A stretch of 27,299 nucleotides of DNA from a virus. The position numbers and the translations under genes were made by a program. Each line of letters starts with the position of its first letter. Position 1 is the stretch's first letter. A model generated the notes under the pieces. It saw only the letters and a list, made by a program, of their open reading frames with translations. It made no database searches and was not told the DNA's origin. Positions 2,186 through 24,226 of the stretch are shown piece by piece. The stretch spans positions 1 to 27,299 of IMG/VR virus record IMGVR_UViG_3300009182_000263. The stretch is one strand, 5' to 3'.

Positions 2186-5100
2186 TTAGTCTCCTAGTAG
2201 TCTTCCGAATAGTACGTCATATGCCGCTTGTGTGTTTTCATTGTATTTTGCAAGTTGTTTCATTTGAGCAACAGTGTCATCTTTAAGCATTTTTGCTAGT
2301 TGCTGTGAACTTCCATATTGGTCATATGCCATTTTATTGTCCTGATATGTCTGATACAACTGTGACATTTCACGAAGTCTTGCTTCTGTCTTTGGACGAA
2401 CATTAAGATTTTTTCCAAGCATTGCATTAAGTTCATCTAAAGTACGAAGACGATCAATAGCCTTCTGGCTTCCCTTTGAAAGTTCTTCTTGAACTAATGG
2501 ACGTCCTGCAAAGAACACAGATTTCCACTGGTCAAAATCTTTACGCAGTTGTGTACGTTCATAATCTGTATAAGCAGTAGACAAGGAAGCATCAAAAGAA
2601 TCCTTCTTTGTGTAATACTGGTTTAGATCCGCTGCTGTTTGAACCTCACGAAGGTAATCATCTACACGCTTGTATGTTGTAAGTCCTACGCTCTTCATAG
2701 CCTGGTAAGCATCCCAAGAGAATCCACTCTTGTGAGGGATAAGGAAGCCTGCAGCTGATGGGTATTGGTCGAACAGACCCTTATTTTGCAATACAAAGTT
2801 ACCTGACTCAGCAGCATATCTTAATGGAGCAATAGTCTTCTTTTCTGTTTCAGTAATAGTAAATGGCATTTCATTTGGATAAAGTTCTATCCACTTAGCC
2901 ATAGCAGCATTTACATCTCCTGGATACTGATTAAGTAAACCATTCCATAACTGCTTAAAGTTTGCCTTGCCATTATCAGAAATCCATTGTTCCATATCAG
3001 ATTTAAGTTGAATCTGTGGTGAAGCAGGGACAACAAAGCCAAGTACAAATCGCATTGCAAGAATACTTTGTACAGTTGTTTTAATTCTTAGACGATAAGC
3101 CTCTTGTTCACCTGGTGTTGATGGAAGAAGATTGCCGTCTTTGTCGTAATTCTTTGGCAGTCCGTGACCTGATGCTTCTAAGTAAGTAACGCTTTTACGC
3201 CAGGCGCTTGCATATTGTGAGTTACGCTCATCTGTATTCATTGATGCGTATAAACGGTTAATATGTGCCGGTAAGATTGATGACAAGAACGGTTGTCCAG
3301 TTGCATACTTACCAAGTGCATAACCTTGAATAGTATCTGCTGCGCCCTTATCAATGTTGCTTACTAGGCTAGATAGAGTCTGGATACTAAGACCGGCAAG
3401 TGGTCCAGATAATGTTGGAACCATTGAATCTGGGTTCAAAGATGGTGTAAGCATCTTTAGCTGTGAACCAAATTGTATTGGAAATGGGACCTTGAACTGA
3501 TCTCCAATACCTAAACGATCCATTGCATTTTGGACTGCGTTATATACAGGACCAATTCCTGGGTATACAAAATAGTCTTGACCTTGGTCATCCTTTTGTA
3601 CCCAACCTGAGTGAGTAATACCTTCGTATGTTAAAGCACCCTTAACAATAGCCTCTGGGTTATAGCGAACTACACGGTACATACGACGATAAAAGTCTTC
3701 AGTTGCACGATAGAAACGAGCAAAGTTACGTGATGAGAAAGCAATCTGTGTACGAATCAATGGGTTATCTACATATTGTAGAACCTGATTCATAGCGCGT
3801 TCTTCAACAATTTTAGCCAATTCAACTTTTGCACGCTCTGTTGCAATAGTAATACCGGTAGTATTGGTTGCATCGATACCCTTTGTATGGGCATCAATCC
3901 ACGCTTGCTCAAATCCATTTTCACGCATTTGCTTGCGTACTTTAATCATTTCTTCAATGACCATAGGTTGACGTGACATACGTGCGTTAGCCATACCAAG
4001 GAATGTCCAACCATTTGTCATCAATGATGACGTAATCTGACCAGCTTCTACAGCAGGAATAAGTGTTGGACCAACAATTGCGTGTGGAATATCATTTGGG
4101 TTAGTTGGAAGATCATCAATAGATAAACGTCCACTTACTTGATAGTTACCATATTTGTCGCTAACGCGAACCTTATTAAGAAGTTCTTGGTTAATCTCAC
4201 CGTCACGCTTAACAAAGTGACTCTTAGAACGTTGAAACGCTAAGCGAATAATACCTTCTGAATCCATATCGTTTTGCAAACGAGCATCTTTTAAGAACTG
4301 CTTGCCATCTTTAGTATCAAGCCAAACGCGCATATTTTTAAGCGCCTTTGTTTCATCATCTAAATTAGCAATAGCAATCTTGCCTAGATCATCATTAGAG
4401 TAACGACCAATTTGCATAAGCCAAGAGTACATAGATGCTTCATCTTGTGGATTAAGAGCCTGTGGCTTGAACCCACGCTCACCTGGCTTCTTAACAAAGT
4501 TATCTTTAGAAGGTGCAATTTCTAATGCGTGTACACGCACACCCATTTGACGGGATAGATTAGTTGCACGAGTAATGTAATCATTACCGGTAACGTAGTT
4601 AAGTCCACCTTCAGATGCTACTGATAAGGCATTTTCAATGTCGCCAAATTGAAGTTGTTCTGTTAACAAATCAATTTCTTCTTTATTCATTGCGCCTTTG
4701 CCCATAGACTCACGGAAGCGATTGATGCGTCCTTCAGTTAAAGCACGAGCAAAGATCTGGCGTGATTGCTCTGTAATGCCACCTTGTAATTCTTTACTAA
4801 GGGTAGCAATTTCTGCTTGGTGCACAGCAATATCTGGATGACCTTTAGGTAATTCTTTAATTAGTTTGTTGATATTAGCAATCTCTGCTTTACCTGTTTC
4901 AAACTTAGTTTGAAGCTGTGTAAGTTCTCCTGTATACTTATCAACATCTTTCTTATTGACAAGACGCATTACAAGACCTAGTGGATTATCTGCCCAATTA
5001 GTATTGCCTTCTACCTTTTTAACTGCTTGAAGGTATGTGTTAATACGGGTTGAAAGTACGCGGCTCTTAGCCAATCCCCAAGGAGATTCACCAATTGCAA

Positions 5101-7018
5101 GGCTAACCATAAGATCTTCGCCTGCGTTACGAAGAGCATAACGAGGGCCAGCTAAAGTAAAGAATGACCAAGCACTAGTCATCTTGCTTGCAAGATCGCT
5201 ATTGGCCACACCGATCATCTTCTGGAATAGACCATTACGTGATGCTGCACGGTCAATATCTGTAAGAGTTGGTGCTGCTACGAAGTTAGAAAAGTCAGAT
5301 GGCAATGCACCCTTATCACGGAAAGCATCATCTAATCCAAAGATTGCATTAGTCTTACCAGTAAGTTGACGAACAATTTGCTGCCCTGGAAGAGTTGTGT
5401 TCATCCCACGGATCTCAGAAATGGTCTTCCAAAGTCCGTAGTAAACGTCCTTCTTTTTACCTACTTCTTCAATGCTATCAAATGCTTGTGCAAGCAACTT
5501 TGATTCACGTGTTGGTAAAACCATTACAGCTAGGCTATAAATTTTTTGTGAGGCATCTGGCGCTGTTACATCAAAGACATCGTCTTTGAACATAGGAGCA
5601 CGTGAAAATGCTGCCTTGGCACGATCAATACGGTACTGAACATAGTCAGTTGAAAACCGTGCAATTTTCTTAGAAGGTGTTAGTGCAGTAACTTTATCAA
5701 TAATAGCCTTTTGATTATTGATAATAGTTTCAGCAATACCATCTGAAGTTGATGCTCCACCAAACCACATATCATCTACAAGTTTTGGACCTACTGCATC
5801 TAGGCTAAATACTTTACGACCAGTAGTGACCGCTGCGATACGAGCCTGACGAAGTGGGTCCATACGAGGAATGATTACTCGCTGACGTCCTAGTTCACCT
5901 TTAAGCATTTCATCTAGTTGCTTAGTATTTTCAAAGAAAGCCTGTGCTGTTTTAGCATCCTGAATAGGAACTTTAGGAGTAAGAAAAGATTTGATAACTG
6001 AATCGCCAAATTCAGGAGCAAGTGTTGTTAAATCTCGTTTAGCAATAAGTGCTGCCTCTGGGCTTTTAGATGCTACAGCTTTTGAATAATTATTTAATGC
6101 TGCACCATATTGGTCCCAAAATGTAATTACCTGTGGGTTAGCAAATACTTCAGTAACTTTGTTGCCACCTACCACAACATCTAACGCATATTTGCTTACA
6201 TCATAAGCACGCTTTGCTTTACCAGCAATAAGTAGTGGATCTGCAAGAACACGATATGCCGCATCAACTGCGCCAGAAACTGCCTTATAGAAAAGACCAG
6301 ATCCTTCTAATTCTGCTGGAGTTACAAGATTTGCAACTTGACGTCCTGGAGAATACTTAGCAGCATTGACCGCATCAAGTGTATCTTGAAAGTTAGCACG
6401 AGCTGCTTTAATGTCTTCTGGGTTAATCCCCGGAATAACTTTATTAGTAGGATCTGCCAGCATCAGATACTTCTTTTGCTCTGGTGTAGCAGTTGCTAAA
6501 ATCTTTGCAGGATCTTCTTGAGCAGCAAGACGCTGAGCAATATCTACTGCGTCATTTCCCCATTTAACCTTTGCATCAATGATGCGTGTAGGGCTAAAGA
6601 CTTTATCGCCTTTGTCATTTGCAATAGTCCAGGCTGTTGAAAGGTCTACGCCTTGATCTGCTGCAATAGCACCAGTGCGATATGCACGAGTCATTACATC
6701 TGATACGTTACCAAGACCAGCAAGAACGTGACCACCGGCATAACCAATAGCATTGCCAAGAAGACCGCCTGTATAGTGCCAAGCAGTACCCAACCAACCA
6801 CGTTGTGGTTTAATTGCTGGATCTTCGTTACCAAAATTCTTTTGTAAATTTTGTTGTTGTTCAGGAGTTAACTGGTTGTACTTAGCATTTGCTACACCAG
6901 ATGGAAGATTAGAAAGTTCTTTATGAACTGTAAGAGACTTATTAAAAGCATCTAATTTTCTTTGATCTTCTGGCGATAACCCTGCTGCGAAAGCTGCTGC
7001 TTTTAGGCTATCAGACAT
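2186..7018 (-). CDS. Giant internal/ejection-type virion protein (1610 aa)
   Basis: The largest gene in the window. The N-terminus (residues 1-70) is hydrophilic, followed by a Gly/Ala-rich hydrophobic stretch (about 75-110, GGLLGNAIGYAGGHVLAGLG) that could contact membrane. A central coiled-coil-like part around residues 700-760 is rich in Lys, Glu and Gln. A second hydrophobic patch lies near MRFVLGFVVPASP. The C-terminal 200 residues are charged and helical. No polymerase, lysozyme or protease motif is evident. It starts at ATG 7018 with a TGATG overlap and AAGG upstream. Giant proteins in the head/connector neighbourhood are typical of podoviral internal virion proteins, but this assignment rests on size, position and composition. 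A tail-associated scaffold is the alternative. Confidence 0.7.
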   Translation of the reverse strand: MSDSLKAAAFAAGLSPEDQRKLDAFNKSLTVHKELSNLPSGVANAKYNQLTPEQQQNLQKNFGNEDPAIKPQRGWLGTAWHYTGGLLGNAIGYAGGHVLAGLGNVSDVMTRAYRTGAIAADQGVDLSTAWTIANDKGDKVFSPTRIIDAKVKWGNDAVDIAQRLAAQEDPAKILATATPEQKKYLMLADPTNKVIPGINPEDIKAARANFQDTLDAVNAAKYSPGRQVANLVTPAELEGSGLFYKAVSGAVDAAYRVLADPLLIAGKAKRAYDVSKYALDVVVGGNKVTEVFANPQVITFWDQYGAALNNYSKAVASKSPEAALIAKRDLTTLAPEFGDSVIKSFLTPKVPIQDAKTAQAFFENTKQLDEMLKGELGRQRVIIPRMDPLRQARIAAVTTGRKVFSLDAVGPKLVDDMWFGGASTSDGIAETIINNQKAIIDKVTALTPSKKIARFSTDYVQYRIDRAKAAFSRAPMFKDDVFDVTAPDASQKIYSLAVMVLPTRESKLLAQAFDSIEEVGKKKDVYYGLWKTISEIRGMNTTLPGQQIVRQLTGKTNAIFGLDDAFRDKGALPSDFSNFVAAPTLTDIDRAASRNGLFQKMIGVANSDLASKMTSAWSFFTLAGPRYALRNAGEDLMVSLAIGESPWGLAKSRVLSTRINTYLQAVKKVEGNTNWADNPLGLVMRLVNKKDVDKYTGELTQLQTKFETGKAEIANINKLIKELPKGHPDIAVHQAEIATLSKELQGGITEQSRQIFARALTEGRINRFRESMGKGAMNKEEIDLLTEQLQFGDIENALSVASEGGLNYVTGNDYITRATNLSRQMGVRVHALEIAPSKDNFVKKPGERGFKPQALNPQDEASMYSWLMQIGRYSNDDLGKIAIANLDDETKALKNMRVWLDTKDGKQFLKDARLQNDMDSEGIIRLAFQRSKSHFVKRDGEINQELLNKVRVSDKYGNYQVSGRLSIDDLPTNPNDIPHAIVGPTLIPAVEAGQITSSLMTNGWTFLGMANARMSRQPMVIEEMIKVRKQMRENGFEQAWIDAHTKGIDATNTTGITIATERAKVELAKIVEERAMNQVLQYVDNPLIRTQIAFSSRNFARFYRATEDFYRRMYRVVRYNPEAIVKGALTYEGITHSGWVQKDDQGQDYFVYPGIGPVYNAVQNAMDRLGIGDQFKVPFPIQFGSQLKMLTPSLNPDSMVPTLSGPLAGLSIQTLSSLVSNIDKGAADTIQGYALGKYATGQPFLSSILPAHINRLYASMNTDERNSQYASAWRKSVTYLEASGHGLPKNYDKDGNLLPSTPGEQEAYRLRIKTTVQSILAMRFVLGFVVPASPQIQLKSDMEQWISDNGKANFKQLWNGLLNQYPGDVNAAMAKWIELYPNEMPFTITETEKKTIAPLRYAAESGNFVLQNKGLFDQYPSAAGFLIPHKSGFSWDAYQAMKSVGLTTYKRVDDYLREVQTAADLNQYYTKKDSFDASLSTAYTDYERTQLRKDFDQWKSVFFAGRPLVQEELSKGSQKAIDRLRTLDELNAMLGKNLNVRPKTEARLREMSQLYQTYQDNKMAYDQYGSSQQLAKMLKDDTVAQMKQLAKYNENTQAAYDVLFGRLLGD

Positions 7019-7437
7019 CAGTTACCTTTCGCTAAGGCATCCTGATACAAGACAGCAATTTCACCTGTTGTGTCGTAAGGAAGCATCTTTGCTAAAGTAT
7101 CTGAAATTTTTTCTGATGACTTAGCCATTGACAATACATTAGAACCAGCACCTGGTCCTATATCTACACCGTGTGTTACTGGTTCTCCTGGGCGTTGTGA
7201 TGGATCAAATAATCCAACACCTGTTGGAGCTGCTGCCCCACCGCCTGTTGGGACTGTTGGTGCCTGTGAAAGCATTGGTGACTTAGGTGCTGTTGAAAGA
7301 GGCGCACCTGACTTATCTGCATTGTATGCAGTTGCATCACCATAAGATTGTGACTGGTATGAAAGATCAGTACGCTTCGAAAATGAGCCAGGACCTGATA
7401 CACCCTGCATTGGGTTAGTGCGATCTTCAATCGCCAT
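7018..7437 (-). CDS. Gly/Pro/Ser-rich structural-region protein, hypothetical (139 aa)
   Basis: A small protein with a disordered-looking first two thirds: Ser, Gly, Pro, Thr and Ala dominate residues 10-100, including PTVPTGGGAAAPTGVG. A short helical C-terminus follows (about 103-137, KSSEKISDTLAKMLPYDTTG). No Cys or known motif. ATG at 7437 has a strong GGAGG six bases upstream and overlaps the preceding gene by 11 nt. Its stop overlaps the start of the giant virion gene as TGATG, so it is translationally coupled. It could be a small virion or scaffolding accessory. The function is unknown. Confidence 0.7.
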   Translation of the reverse strand: MAIEDRTNPMQGVSGPGSFSKRTDLSYQSQSYGDATAYNADKSGAPLSTAPKSPMLSQAPTVPTGGGAAAPTGVGLFDPSQRPGEPVTHGVDIGPGAGSNVLSMAKSSEKISDTLAKMLPYDTTGEIAVLYQDALAKGN

Positions 7438-7648
7438 TTGTATCCTCCTGAATAGTTTCTAAATCTTGTGCGAAGTCATCCCAAATTTTATTAACTTTGG
7501 TTTCGCGGTTTGAGTGGTAAATTGATAATTCCATTAAAGACTCTGCAAGGTTTGTAATCACTTGACAGATATTGTAAATAAACTCTGTAAATATAACTAA
7601 CGCATCAGTAGGACGTACTGGACGTGGCACTTCATTATTGTTATTCAC
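7427..7648 (-). CDS. Small acidic helical protein, hypothetical (73 aa)
   Basis: Starts at GTG 7648 with AGGAG eight bases upstream. The protein has an Asn-rich start (MNNNNEVPRP), then an amphipathic or hydrophobic helix (ALVIFTEFIYNICQVITNLAESLMELSI) and an acidic tail ending QEDTNGD. The hydrophobic stretch is broken by charged residues, so a stable transmembrane segment is doubtful. It sits between the portal-proximal basic mini-protein and the Gly/Pro-rich protein in the structural run and overlaps the next gene by 11 nt. Unrecognised. A head-completion or chaperone role would be a guess. Confidence 0.65.
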   Translation of the reverse strand: MNNNNEVPRPVRPTDALVIFTEFIYNICQVITNLAESLMELSIYHSNRETKVNKIWDDFAQDLETIQEDTNGD

Positions 7649-14661: not shown

Positions 14662-14896
14662 CATCTACACCATACACCCACCAAAATCTGATCTAATCCT
14701 ATTCTATGAAGTCTTGACACCCAACGGAGAGAATGAATGGGGAGGGGCGAACGCTGAGCACGCTATCGAATGGCTATCTCGTGCTCCCTCCGGCTCCCGA
14801 GTGCTAGTATCTGCTTGGGATAGTGATGAGGAGGACGCTCATCTAGTAGGTCAAACGCTAGACATAACAGAGATCGTGAGGGCAGCTAGTTTATGA
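14654..14896 (+). CDS. Acidic hypothetical protein (80 aa)
   Basis: ATG 14654 follows GGGAGGAG by about 5 nt. The protein (MSNIYTIHPPKSDLILFYEV ... DSDEEDAHLVGQTLDITEIV) appears to be a compact alpha/beta domain with two strands, a helix (NAEHAIEWLSRAP) and two more strands. No Cys, no catalytic motif. It overlaps the next gene by 4 nt (ATGA). Function unknown. Confidence 0.65.
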   Translation: MSNIYTIHPPKSDLILFYEVLTPNGENEWGGANAEHAIEWLSRAPSGSRVLVSAWDSDEEDAHLVGQTLDITEIVRAASL

Positions 14897-15171
14897 AAGA
14901 AGTCAGTGGCAAACAAGCCATTCATTACCGTAATTACAGACGGGCGAGAGACAAAGCCTTAGTGCGCCTTGCTCATCTGTATCCAGACACGTATAAGCAA
15001 CTGCTTGACGAACAAAGGAGTTTTGATGAGCAAGAAGGCACTACTTGGAGTATTGCTAGTGATAGTAAGCTCACTATTACTACACGCACACGTGCGAACG
15101 CCGTCCCTGATGTCGCAGGACGTACCGATTATGAAAGCGCGGACGAAGGCAACTATGGAGGAGAAGCGTGA
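14893..15171 (+). CDS. Hypothetical helical protein of an actinophage type (92 aa)
   Basis: Starts in an ATGA overlap. Residues 10-50 form the compact conserved-looking part, YRNYRRARDKALVRLAHLYP then DTYKQLLDEQRSFDEQEGTT, a two-helix pattern that I associate with small unnamed actinophage proteins. Residues 55-92 are low complexity (Thr, Arg, Asp, Glu) and are encoded by DNA that also carries, in another frame, the start and signal peptide of the transglycosylase-like gene at 15026. The tail may therefore be shaped by that second gene. Function unknown. Confidence 0.65.
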   Translation: MKEVSGKQAIHYRNYRRARDKALVRLAHLYPDTYKQLLDEQRSFDEQEGTTWSIASDSKLTITTRTRANAVPDVAGRTDYESADEGNYGGEA

Positions 15172-15442
15172 GAACAAGGCACTTACAGTTAGTTACGCAT
15201 ACGCACTCGGTTACAGTAAGAAGCAAGTCTCTTGCCTTGTCACCTTATGGACCGGTGAGAGCAGGTTTGACCACCTCGCAGACAACAAGCGATCAACAGC
15301 TTACGGAATTGCTCAACTGCTTGGAGAGAAAGATAGCGATCCTAGTATCCAAATCCTCCACGGTATTAGATACATTGGAGCAAGGTACAAAAGCAATTCG
15401 TGCCTCGCACTTAGACACCACCAACGAAAACACTGGTACTAG
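15026..15442 (+). CDS. Secreted lytic-transglycosylase-like (lysozyme-fold) protein (138 aa)
   Basis: The start is ATG 15026, with GGAG five bases upstream; an in-frame ATG at 14969 has no ribosome-binding site and would put a polar stretch before the signal peptide. Residues 1-22 (MSKKALLGVLLVIVSSLLLH) form a signal peptide or membrane anchor. Residues 52-138 match the SLT/lysozyme-like pattern of small actinobacterial and phage peptidoglycan hydrolases: catalytic Glu78 in TGESRF, then AYGIAQLL, a GIRYIGARY helix, and a terminal CLALRHHQRKHWY. It probably cleaves glycan strands outside the membrane. It overlaps the preceding gene by 146 nt in a different frame and touches the methyltransferase start (TAGTG). 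It sits far from the holin/endolysin genes. Confidence 0.75.
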   Translation: MSKKALLGVLLVIVSSLLLHAHVRTPSLMSQDVPIMKARTKATMEEKRENKALTVSYAYALGYSKKQVSCLVTLWTGESRFDHLADNKRSTAYGIAQLLGEKDSDPSIQILHGIRYIGARYKSNSCLALRHHQRKHWY

Positions 15443-22185: not shown

Positions 22186-23145
22186 TTACTTTCCTCCGAT
22201 AGTTTTGATGTTAAGTCGTACAGATTCGTTACCGACAACCTTCGGTACAAACCCTAGAAGTTTCTCAACTTCCTTTGCATCAACTGTTTCTCTACCTTTA
22301 ACAGTAGACCAGCTGATTTCTACACCACTAGGTGTTACTCCAGTAGTACCCTCGAAGGATGCCTTCAAGGAATCTTTTTCTTTTTCTAGCTCTTTGATCT
22401 TGCTGTCCAACTGTAGATACAGCAGTGCGTTCTTGTCAACTGCTTCGTCCTCAATAACTATTTCACTAAGGACGATACGTTCTTTTTTTAAGCCACCACA
22501 TCCCATAGTCTCAGACTCATCATAGTATTGGCAGTAGTCTTTACAAAATGATTGGTCTTTCTCAGGCTCTGGCAAAGTTTGACTTGCCTTGACATTTGCT
22601 AACCACTCAAGTGCTTCTAAAGCGATGCTTTCATCATAAGGTTCTGTATGTACCTTGACATCTTTCTCAGCACCATCACGAGCAATAGCAACAAGGTTAA
22701 CCGTTTTAACATTGTATCCATTCTTTGATAGTAAGTATCCATAAACCTGTACCTGCCAACGCTGTTGCTTGGATGGGAAGTAACTCAGGTTCTTTATCTT
22801 GCTGGTCTTCCAGTCAATGACAGCACCGGTGCTAGGTATAAATAAATCTACGTGTGCTTTCATATCACCATAAGCAACAGAGGTTTCAACTAAATACTCT
22901 TTGCCTTCTGGATCTATGTGACCAATAGCCTCTTCAATTGCAGCGTGAATAGCAGTACCCATAATGGCAGCCAGCTTTGATTGGTTCTCATTGGTATGTG
23001 GTTGTGCATTTAATCTGTACCAGACCTTGCGCTTGCAACTACCAATCTCTGATGGACCAACCTCGGTCTGCATACTGCGGTCACGACTTGCATCTTTGTT
23101 ATGCAGTACGTGCAGCAGTAATTCCTTTGGATCTTCTATTGCCAC
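22186..23145 (-). CDS. Cas4/RecB-like PD-(D/E)XK nuclease with Fe-S cysteines (319 aa)
   Basis: Start GTG 23145 with GGAAGG ten bases upstream. Core motifs: Cys37 (GSCKRK), His67 (GTAIHAAIEEAI), Asp100 (AHVDLF), Asp111-x-Lys113 (VIDWKTS), and QVQVYGYLL. The cysteines C201, C205 and C216 (FCKDYCQYY ... MGCGG), together with C37, fit the iron-sulfur arrangement of Cas4 and AddB-like nucleases. The C-terminal ~100 residues (coiled-coil LDSKIKELEKEKDSLKA and a beta-rich end) are an extension beyond Cas4 and could bind partners. It probably resects DNA ends for recombination. No CRISPR array or other cas gene is present. Confidence 0.85.
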   Translation of the reverse strand: MAIEDPKELLLHVLHNKDASRDRSMQTEVGPSEIGSCKRKVWYRLNAQPHTNENQSKLAAIMGTAIHAAIEEAIGHIDPEGKEYLVETSVAYGDMKAHVDLFIPSTGAVIDWKTSKIKNLSYFPSKQQRWQVQVYGYLLSKNGYNVKTVNLVAIARDGAEKDVKVHTEPYDESIALEALEWLANVKASQTLPEPEKDQSFCKDYCQYYDESETMGCGGLKKERIVLSEIVIEDEAVDKNALLYLQLDSKIKELEKEKDSLKASFEGTTGVTPSGVEISWSTVKGRETVDAKEVEKLLGFVPKVVGNESVRLNIKTIGGK

Positions 23146-23235: not shown

Positions 23236-23790
23236 TCAACTCCTCTCTTGGATCTCTAACTGTATGGGTGGACTGGTATTGATGTCAAGAACCGACGCGA
23301 TCTTTACTGCCTTTTCTGCCGCTATCTTTGCCATCTCTGGTGTTCTGTACATTTTGCTTTCTAATCCGTACAAAAACCCCAGCGCATAGTTACCACCTGA
23401 GCCTGATGCAAACAGACCACGCTCACTAGTATTAAAGGACAAGTCCCCGCCTACTGAGAATAAGTTGGCATCAAAAGACAACAAGAAAGCAAAGTTCATT
23501 TCCTTCTGGTCTGGTTCATAATTATTTTCTTTGAACGCAGCTGACATACTAGGCAATAGTTTCCCACCCATAAAACGCACAGGATCTTCACCACGATATA
23601 GCGGTGGCTTCCACGAGTACGCAAGGATATCGCCAGGACGTGAATCACCGGTTAGACCTAATAGGTATTTACCTACCCAGATTATCTTAGGAGTTTCGAC
23701 CGAGATGATACGTTGATCGCCATCAGTAATTTGCGAGTCAGCTGCCATTACGACGAAGTCGTTACTAGAGATCCCTACCAATGTTGTCAT
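23236..23790 (-). CDS. HslV/proteasome-beta-like Ntn-hydrolase protease (184 aa)
   Basis: Start ATG 23790 gives MTTLVGISSNDFVVMAADSQ. The frame extends 12 codons upstream but without a better start. After Met removal, Thr1 would be the nucleophile. Asp17 (AADSQ) and a Lys near 34 (TPKIIWVG) match the catalytic set of HslV and proteasome beta subunits, and SGSGGNYALGFLYG matches the G-S-G-G motif of HslV. The C-terminal region (AEKAVKIASVLDINTSPPIQ) also fits HslV. It probably assembles as a ring protease, but no HslU-type ATPase is in the window. Target proteins unknown. It starts the leftward operon. Confidence 0.85.
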   Translation of the reverse strand: MTTLVGISSNDFVVMAADSQITDGDQRIISVETPKIIWVGKYLLGLTGDSRPGDILAYSWKPPLYRGEDPVRFMGGKLLPSMSAAFKENNYEPDQKEMNFAFLLSFDANLFSVGGDLSFNTSERGLFASGSGGNYALGFLYGLESKMYRTPEMAKIAAEKAVKIASVLDINTSPPIQLEIQERS

Positions 23791-23847
23791 AGTTACTAGT
23801 CTACTACGGCGTGTCGTAAGACACATACTAGGCTCGCCGATTACAAT
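23791..23847. promoter_or_regulatory. Divergent control region with a perfect dyad
   Basis: The 57-bp gap between the HslV-like gene (leftward) and the plus-strand island contains GTGTC-GTAA-GACAC (23811-23824), a perfect 5-bp hairpin or operator-like dyad. Neither flanking gene has a good Shine-Dalgarno, so leaderless or short-leader transcripts are possible. No clear -35/-10 pair could be defined. Confidence 0.35.
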
Positions 23848-23973
23848 ATGAGCGATAGCGAATTTACAGTGGCCCCTTACGGGGCCGAGGCTTTAGCCGA
23901 GAGGCGACCGACCCGCAGGAGGGAGCCGTGCCGAGCAATATGGTACTCCGTCTACTCACCCTGCCAAGAATGA
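23848..23973 (+). CDS. Putative small protein upstream of the zinc-ribbon gene (41 aa)
   Basis: A 41-codon frame, ATG 23848 to TGA 23971, beginning MSDSEFTVAPYGAEALAERR and ending SVYSPCQE. It has no ribosome-binding site and overlaps the next gene by 46 nt. Its DNA contains a GGCCCC-TTAC-GGGGCC palindrome (23871-23886). Part of this (CCTTACGGGGCCGA) recurs at 24009-24022 in the next gene, and both copies encode PYGA plus an acidic residue. The repeat gives some support to coding, but a leader RNA is equally possible. Confidence 0.35.
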   Translation: MSDSEFTVAPYGAEALAERRPTRRREPCRAIWYSVYSPCQE

Positions 23974-24185
23974 ACCGCAGGCGCAAGCCCTACGATGGCA
24001 TTAAAGAGCCTTACGGGGCCGATCTGCGGGGTTTAGGACCCATCCACGTCTGTACCTGTGGCTCACAAGTCTTTAACGTTATGTGCTCCTTTGAAGACTA
24101 CGAACTAGTCTGGTATTTCCTTGATGCTACTTGTGTTTCCTGTGGCAATCTTGTCATCGTTCCCTGTTCAGTAGACAAAATTTAG
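23928..24185 (+). CDS. Zinc-ribbon-like protein, plus-strand island (85 aa)
   Basis: GTG 23928 has an excellent AGGAGG site five bases upstream. The protein starts with a basic stretch (MPSNMVLRLLTLPRMNRRRK) and has CTCG (43-46) and CVSCG (near 70-74), a likely zinc ribbon, with hydrophobic strands between (VFNVMCSFEDYELVWYFLDA). It is the only substantial gene on this strand between two leftward operons and ends before the terminator hairpin. Function unknown; a transcription or nucleic-acid-binding role would suit the basic N-terminus. Confidence 0.65.
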   Translation: MPSNMVLRLLTLPRMNRRRKPYDGIKEPYGADLRGLGPIHVCTCGSQVFNVMCSFEDYELVWYFLDATCVSCGNLVIVPCSVDKI

Positions 24186-24198
24186 GCAACAAAAAACA

Positions 24199-24226
24199 GG
24201 CCCCCACTCCCGAAGGAGTGAGGGCC
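24199..24226 (-). terminator. Intrinsic terminator of the lysis gene block
   Basis: GGCCC-C-CACTCC pairs with GGAGTG-A-GGGCC around a CGAA loop, giving 11 pairs with one mismatch. On the minus strand the stem is followed by TGTTTTTTGTTGCC, a good T tract. It ends transcripts from the tail/lysis genes and may also stop the convergent plus-strand island. Confidence 0.85.

Follow-up and report, generated by a model that had tools for sequence, protein, structure and literature searches.

A proteasome-like protease gene at the head of a phage replication operon and its alternation with an HExxH open reading frame

The locus and its phage

The window, i.e., the whole stretch of viral DNA analysed here (27,299 nucleotides), covers part of the genome (27.3 kb), and the remainder comes from a 38.1-kb record with 99.99% identity across 27.1 kb. 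Phage genes for WhiB, a sigma factor, a DnaB-like helicase, a DNA primase, a portal and a terminase were identified. The terminase shares 47% identity with the one in OX376640/OX376641, the former being Planktophila phage E7 (LanE43AprE7), which has been cultured and infects 'Ca. Nanopelagicales' (PMC10202952). Because of this relationship a Nanopelagicales host is likely for the window phage, which probably infects abundant freshwater actinobacteria. A single close relative, G004 (39370 bp), carries a tyrosine integrase at 14814-15266 on the minus strand, and none was found in the seven other records searched; some members of the phage group may be temperate.

The locus comprises the following features:
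23236 to 23790, minus strand (read from 23790 to 23236): proteasome-like Ntn hydrolase gene, 184 aa, ATG at 23790, no propeptide
22186 to 23145, minus strand: Cas4/RecB-like exonuclease gene, the constant downstream neighbour
23798 to 23803, minus strand: -10-like hexamer TAGACT, 7 nt before the ATG, resembling a leaderless-type promoter; no Shine-Dalgarno sequence
23811 to 23824, no strand assigned: palindrome GTGTC-TTAC-GACAC, candidate operator directly upstream of the position held by the protease gene (hereafter, the slot)
23928 to 24185, plus strand: small zinc-ribbon-like ORF (CxC...CxxC), divergent, bounding the far side of the slot
24199 to 24226, minus strand (24226-24199): intrinsic terminator with a 12-bp stem and a T-run

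The coordinates 23236-23790 of the original prediction were correct, with the ORF lying on the minus strand, while the plus strand across this interval is filled with stop codons. The 184-aa product begins MTTLVGISSNDFVVMAADSQITDG..., and the opening of this same minus-strand protein sequence reads MTTLVGISSNDFVVMAADSQ... The terminator at 24226-24199 divides the lysis genes from the protease transcription unit, in which the protease gene is followed by those for the exonuclease, WhiB and the DnaB-like helicase. With a terminator upstream and a promoter-like region of its own, the gene leads the replication operon, as had been proposed.

In the window clade and its sister clade (L020 type), the protease gene lies directly before the Cas4/RecB-like exonuclease in 162 of 163 loci, leading the replication genes. 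Of the distinct upstream regions in these window-type clades, 30/37 and 39/39 have a TANNNT hexamer 4-10 nt before the start codon, compared with 5.1 and 3.4 expected from shuffling, and Shine-Dalgarno sequences are mostly missing. Judged from these upstream sequences, the start region looks leaderless in both clades. The palindrome GTGTC-N4-GACAC occurs once per genome in the window-clade genomes read, each time just before the slot, and looser forms occur in others. The divergent zinc-ribbon-like ORF was found in 66/66 loci, behind both of the genes that can occupy the slot (see below), and could encode a regulator that binds the palindrome.

Family, fold and active site

The best family match of the protein is phrog_1040, 'peptidase HslV family' (E=3.3e-23), and its match to PF00227 (Proteasome) scores 30.9 bits against a curated cut-off of 22.4; PF00227 is matched by 58 of 63 family members. 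These matches, along with more than 500 relatives on viral contigs, lie well above chance, and the protease gene is real. An AF2 model of the 184-aa protein (pLDDT 92.8) displays a four-layer fold, with PDB relatives among BPH (the beta-proteobacterial proteasome homologue), HslV and 20S beta subunits at E-values down to 8e-12. The nearest solved structure is BPH (TM 0.77 for 5ovs and 0.78 for the epoxomicin complex 5ovt), ahead of HslV at about 0.70. A PDB search with a 63-sequence profile likewise matched HslV and BPH at about 1e-11. A branched-chain aminotransferase match from another PDB search was discarded as chance, the 60 matches listed by the profile search being only HslV, BPH and proteasome chains.

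The HMM and structure comparisons thus bear out the assignment to a proteasome-family protease made in the original prediction. The further claim that the protein is close to bacterial HslV was not supported: the scores against the HslV equivalog models (NCBIfam/TIGR) were 32.8 bits versus a cut-off of 137 and 30.9 versus 157.75, and in a quick tree the protein did not group with cellular HslV, from which it is separated by a branch of 3.0 substitutions per site with 100% support. It belongs to group I of the proteasome-like superfamily, related to BPH and HslV, but it is not HslV proper. Fold, Thr1, the GSGG motif and the MTT start are shared with the HslUV peptidase, whereas no HslU was found in the phage records searched. 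With BPH it shares, besides the nearest fold, a single subunit of about 185 aa, the Thr1/Asp17/Lys33 site and the lack of a known dedicated unfoldase, BPH forming a double heptameric ring without one. The two proteins are, however, only 24% identical, and BPH is chromosomal in Proteobacteria, whereas the window gene is phage-borne in actinophages.

Proteasome homologues of phages are already known. Fuchs et al. 2021 described the phage-associated groups PPH and AAH (PMC8665760), which, like phrog_1040, share with the window protein a group I relationship and the absence of a propeptide. PPH is defined by a length of about 140 aa and the absence of helix H2 (PMC8665760); the window protein, in contrast, has 184 aa and both helices (50-58 and 70-88 in the model). 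For AAH (KEGG cluster OC.661151), no Actinobacteria-specific phages carrying it appeared in the survey (PMC8665760). Actinophage homologues in DSL-LC01 (OQ999401) and Arthrobacter phage Hum25/Pitbull are annotated as 'ATP-dependent protease subunit HslV' or 'protease', but are 28-33% identical and belong to different phage types and neighbourhoods. Cultured phage E7 also encodes a relative, about 31% identical to the window protein.

The original prediction had noted intact catalytic residues, and Thr1, Asp17, Lys34 and the GSGGNYALG motif are all present. Among 165 distinct phage homologues, which span four clades with identities down to about 27%, Thr1, Asp17, Lys34 and Gly47, the proteasome oxyanion glycine, are invariant (165/165). 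Counted from Thr1, the catalytic lysine lies one past the canonical position 33. In the phage homologues dN/dS is about 0.09-0.13, and protein length is almost constant inside each of the three large clades.

The usual start codon of the homologues is an ATG or GTG immediately before Thr1, so that removal of the methionine suffices to expose Thr1. No conserved propeptide was found in their upstream regions. A propeptide starting from an in-frame upstream ATG (23826) was considered and rejected, since stop codons interrupt that reading frame in roughly half of the relatives and this ATG adjoins the palindrome. In nine members (L074, L075, L088, L089, L091, L095, L103, L104 and L108) Thr1 is preceded by an ATC or ATA codon; where inspected closely, e.g., in L091 and L095, that codon follows a strong Shine-Dalgarno sequence. 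This pattern points to non-canonical start codons in members with an additional gene inserted ahead of the protease. In Aeromonas phage 2L372X (L026), two adjacent genes, gp211 and gp001, are both annotated 'peptidase HslV family', possibly as a two-subunit pair.

An HslU-like ATPase had been noted as absent from the window. A search for HslU/ClpX-type ATPases (PF07724) extended this to 12 related phage records, none of which contained one. Records with a Pfam proteasome match hold a single copy each. The earlier assumption that Actinobacteria usually do without HslUV agrees with the survey of proteasome homologues, in which HslV is absent from the Actinobacteria listings (PMC8665760).

Alternation with an HExxH open reading frame

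In a near-complete relative chosen by its terminase (G010), the Ntn protease is missing. The slot contains instead a 110-aa ORF with the motif HEVTH, preceded by the same promoter and palindrome. A representative of this alternative is:
L366, 525 to 857, plus strand: HExxH ORF (HEVTH) replacing the Ntn protease

We surveyed the slot by two anchors. Anchoring on the exonuclease, which is blind to slot content, returned 50 loci with the Ntn protease and 28 with the HExxH ORF, none with both and none with neither, besides one truncated contig. Anchoring on the palindrome, counted where 1 kb or more of upstream sequence was available, gave 87 and 15, respectively, again with no locus holding both or neither. 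On the exonuclease tree the slot state switches four times, and at least three of these switches are forced by well-supported branches. We rejected treating each exchange as a coincidence of its own, as the pair acts like two alleles of a single locus; with the same two alleles swapped each time, that both should be proteases is one coincidence and not several.

In 22 sequences the HExxH motif and a conserved EEVCD following it are invariant. Profile matches of this ORF are weak, comprising DUF6782 'putative metallopeptidase' (22/22) and Peptidase_M78 (21/22), and the best profile of the tested member reached 25.6 bits, just under the cut-off of 27. The model of the ORF is of low confidence (pLDDT 58), and a fold search with it returned no usable match. 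From motif and profiles, the ORF is only probably a metallopeptidase. Its relatives in the phage collection are confined to two Streptococcus prophages, Javan443/445, where the homologue comes first among the genes divergent from the repressor.

As two unrelated predicted peptidases alternate at one address, the job of the slot would seem to be proteolysis early in infection, which suggests that these phages need an early protease. We consider it unlikely that the slot is instead a general site for accessory-gene cassettes, at which functionally unrelated alternatives, e.g., two anti-defence proteins, share just a promoter and flanks. Swapping of small early phage genes is frequent, the HExxH ORF has nothing beyond weak family matches, and HNH endonuclease genes can insert at the slot as well. 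These insertions, however, add to the protease or the HExxH ORF and never substitute for them, and among the loci showing the slot none is empty and none holds a third alternative.

A second address behind the portal and possible roles

In the clade of phage E7 the protease gene lies elsewhere, directly behind the portal gene in 78 of 79 loci, and it is preceded by a Shine-Dalgarno sequence in 34/34 cases. Phage E7 and the window phage thus share the protein family and a related terminase, but the E7 gene does not head the replication operon. The matching position in the window is occupied by a different gene:
7427 to 7648, minus strand: 73-aa ORF immediately following the portal gene; in the E7 clade the matching slot holds the Ntn protease

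We consider it moderately probable that the protein is an active N-terminal-threonine protease that is made early and helps takeover by acting on a regulator or on proteins of the host. Its gene being first in the replication operon, the protease would be expressed early from its own leaderless-type promoter, and methionine removal would expose Thr1, making a propeptide unnecessary. By analogy to BPH and HslV, the subunits probably assemble into rings. The protease could work without ATP on substrates that are partly unfolded, the mode proposed for BPH, or alternatively act via a borrowed host unfoldase, and its targets, either a regulator or one or a few of the host's proteins, would be trimmed or destroyed. 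Computation shows the fold, the catalytic residues, the gene position and the alternation, whereas early timing, activity, ring assembly and substrate are inferred. The location of the E7-clade gene in the head operon is not predicted by such an early host-directed role and counts against it.

This second address favours a morphogenetic (prohead-type) protease that cuts the scaffold, the portal or another virion protein, the place in the replication operon being a relocation. There the gene has a strong Shine-Dalgarno sequence, and the position behind the portal is the classic place of a prohead protease; the head genes scanned in G001 and E7 included none that is recognised as such. We nevertheless regard a role in virion maturation as improbable. 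The position between portal and capsid genes is that of the E7 clade and not of the window clade, where the gene opens an early operon of its own and alternates with the HExxH ORF. Moreover, the major head proteins begin with the capsid core and have no removable N-terminal extension; the E7 protein is longer, but by internal sequence.

That the product is no protease at all, but an inactive scaffold or a connectase-like ligase or another kind of Ntn enzyme, is very improbable: the superfamily includes a ligase, connectase (PMC8665760), but the catalytic residues and the oxyanion glycine are invariant, the secondary structure of the model is without connectase's two-helix insertion after strand 3/4, and the gene alternates with a metallopeptidase-like one.

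Returning to the early host-directed protease, a bolder form of this reading is possible, which we put forward tentatively. The slot may be an obligatory early 'protease slot' in a very abundant family of freshwater actinophages, where either of two unrelated enzymes, a proteasome-like threonine protease or an HExxH metallopeptidase, would do the same job, namely the cleavage of a single specific host factor that may serve defence or regulation. If true, a viral proteasome homologue would for the first time have a defined role. Phage-borne proteasome homologues have no assigned function, and the survey describing them saw no telling genomic context (PMC8665760). Here the context is informative, comprising a fixed address at the head of an early operon and mutual exclusion with a metallopeptidase-like gene. 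We found no description of the fixed early slot, of the leaderless promoter with its palindrome, of the alternation with the HExxH ORF or of the second address behind the portal. The phages concerned belong to the viruses of one of the commonest freshwater bacterial groups, and with the relative E7 in culture on 'Ca. Planktophila' LanE-43, the timing of expression, the virion content and the substrates can be tested. Protein degradation is named among phage functions in the E7 paper (PMC10202952).

Behind the portal gene, the window also encodes a 1610-aa protein (2186-7018, minus strand) with no PHROG match and a 1764-aa homologue in phage E7; it is possibly an internal or injected virion protein.
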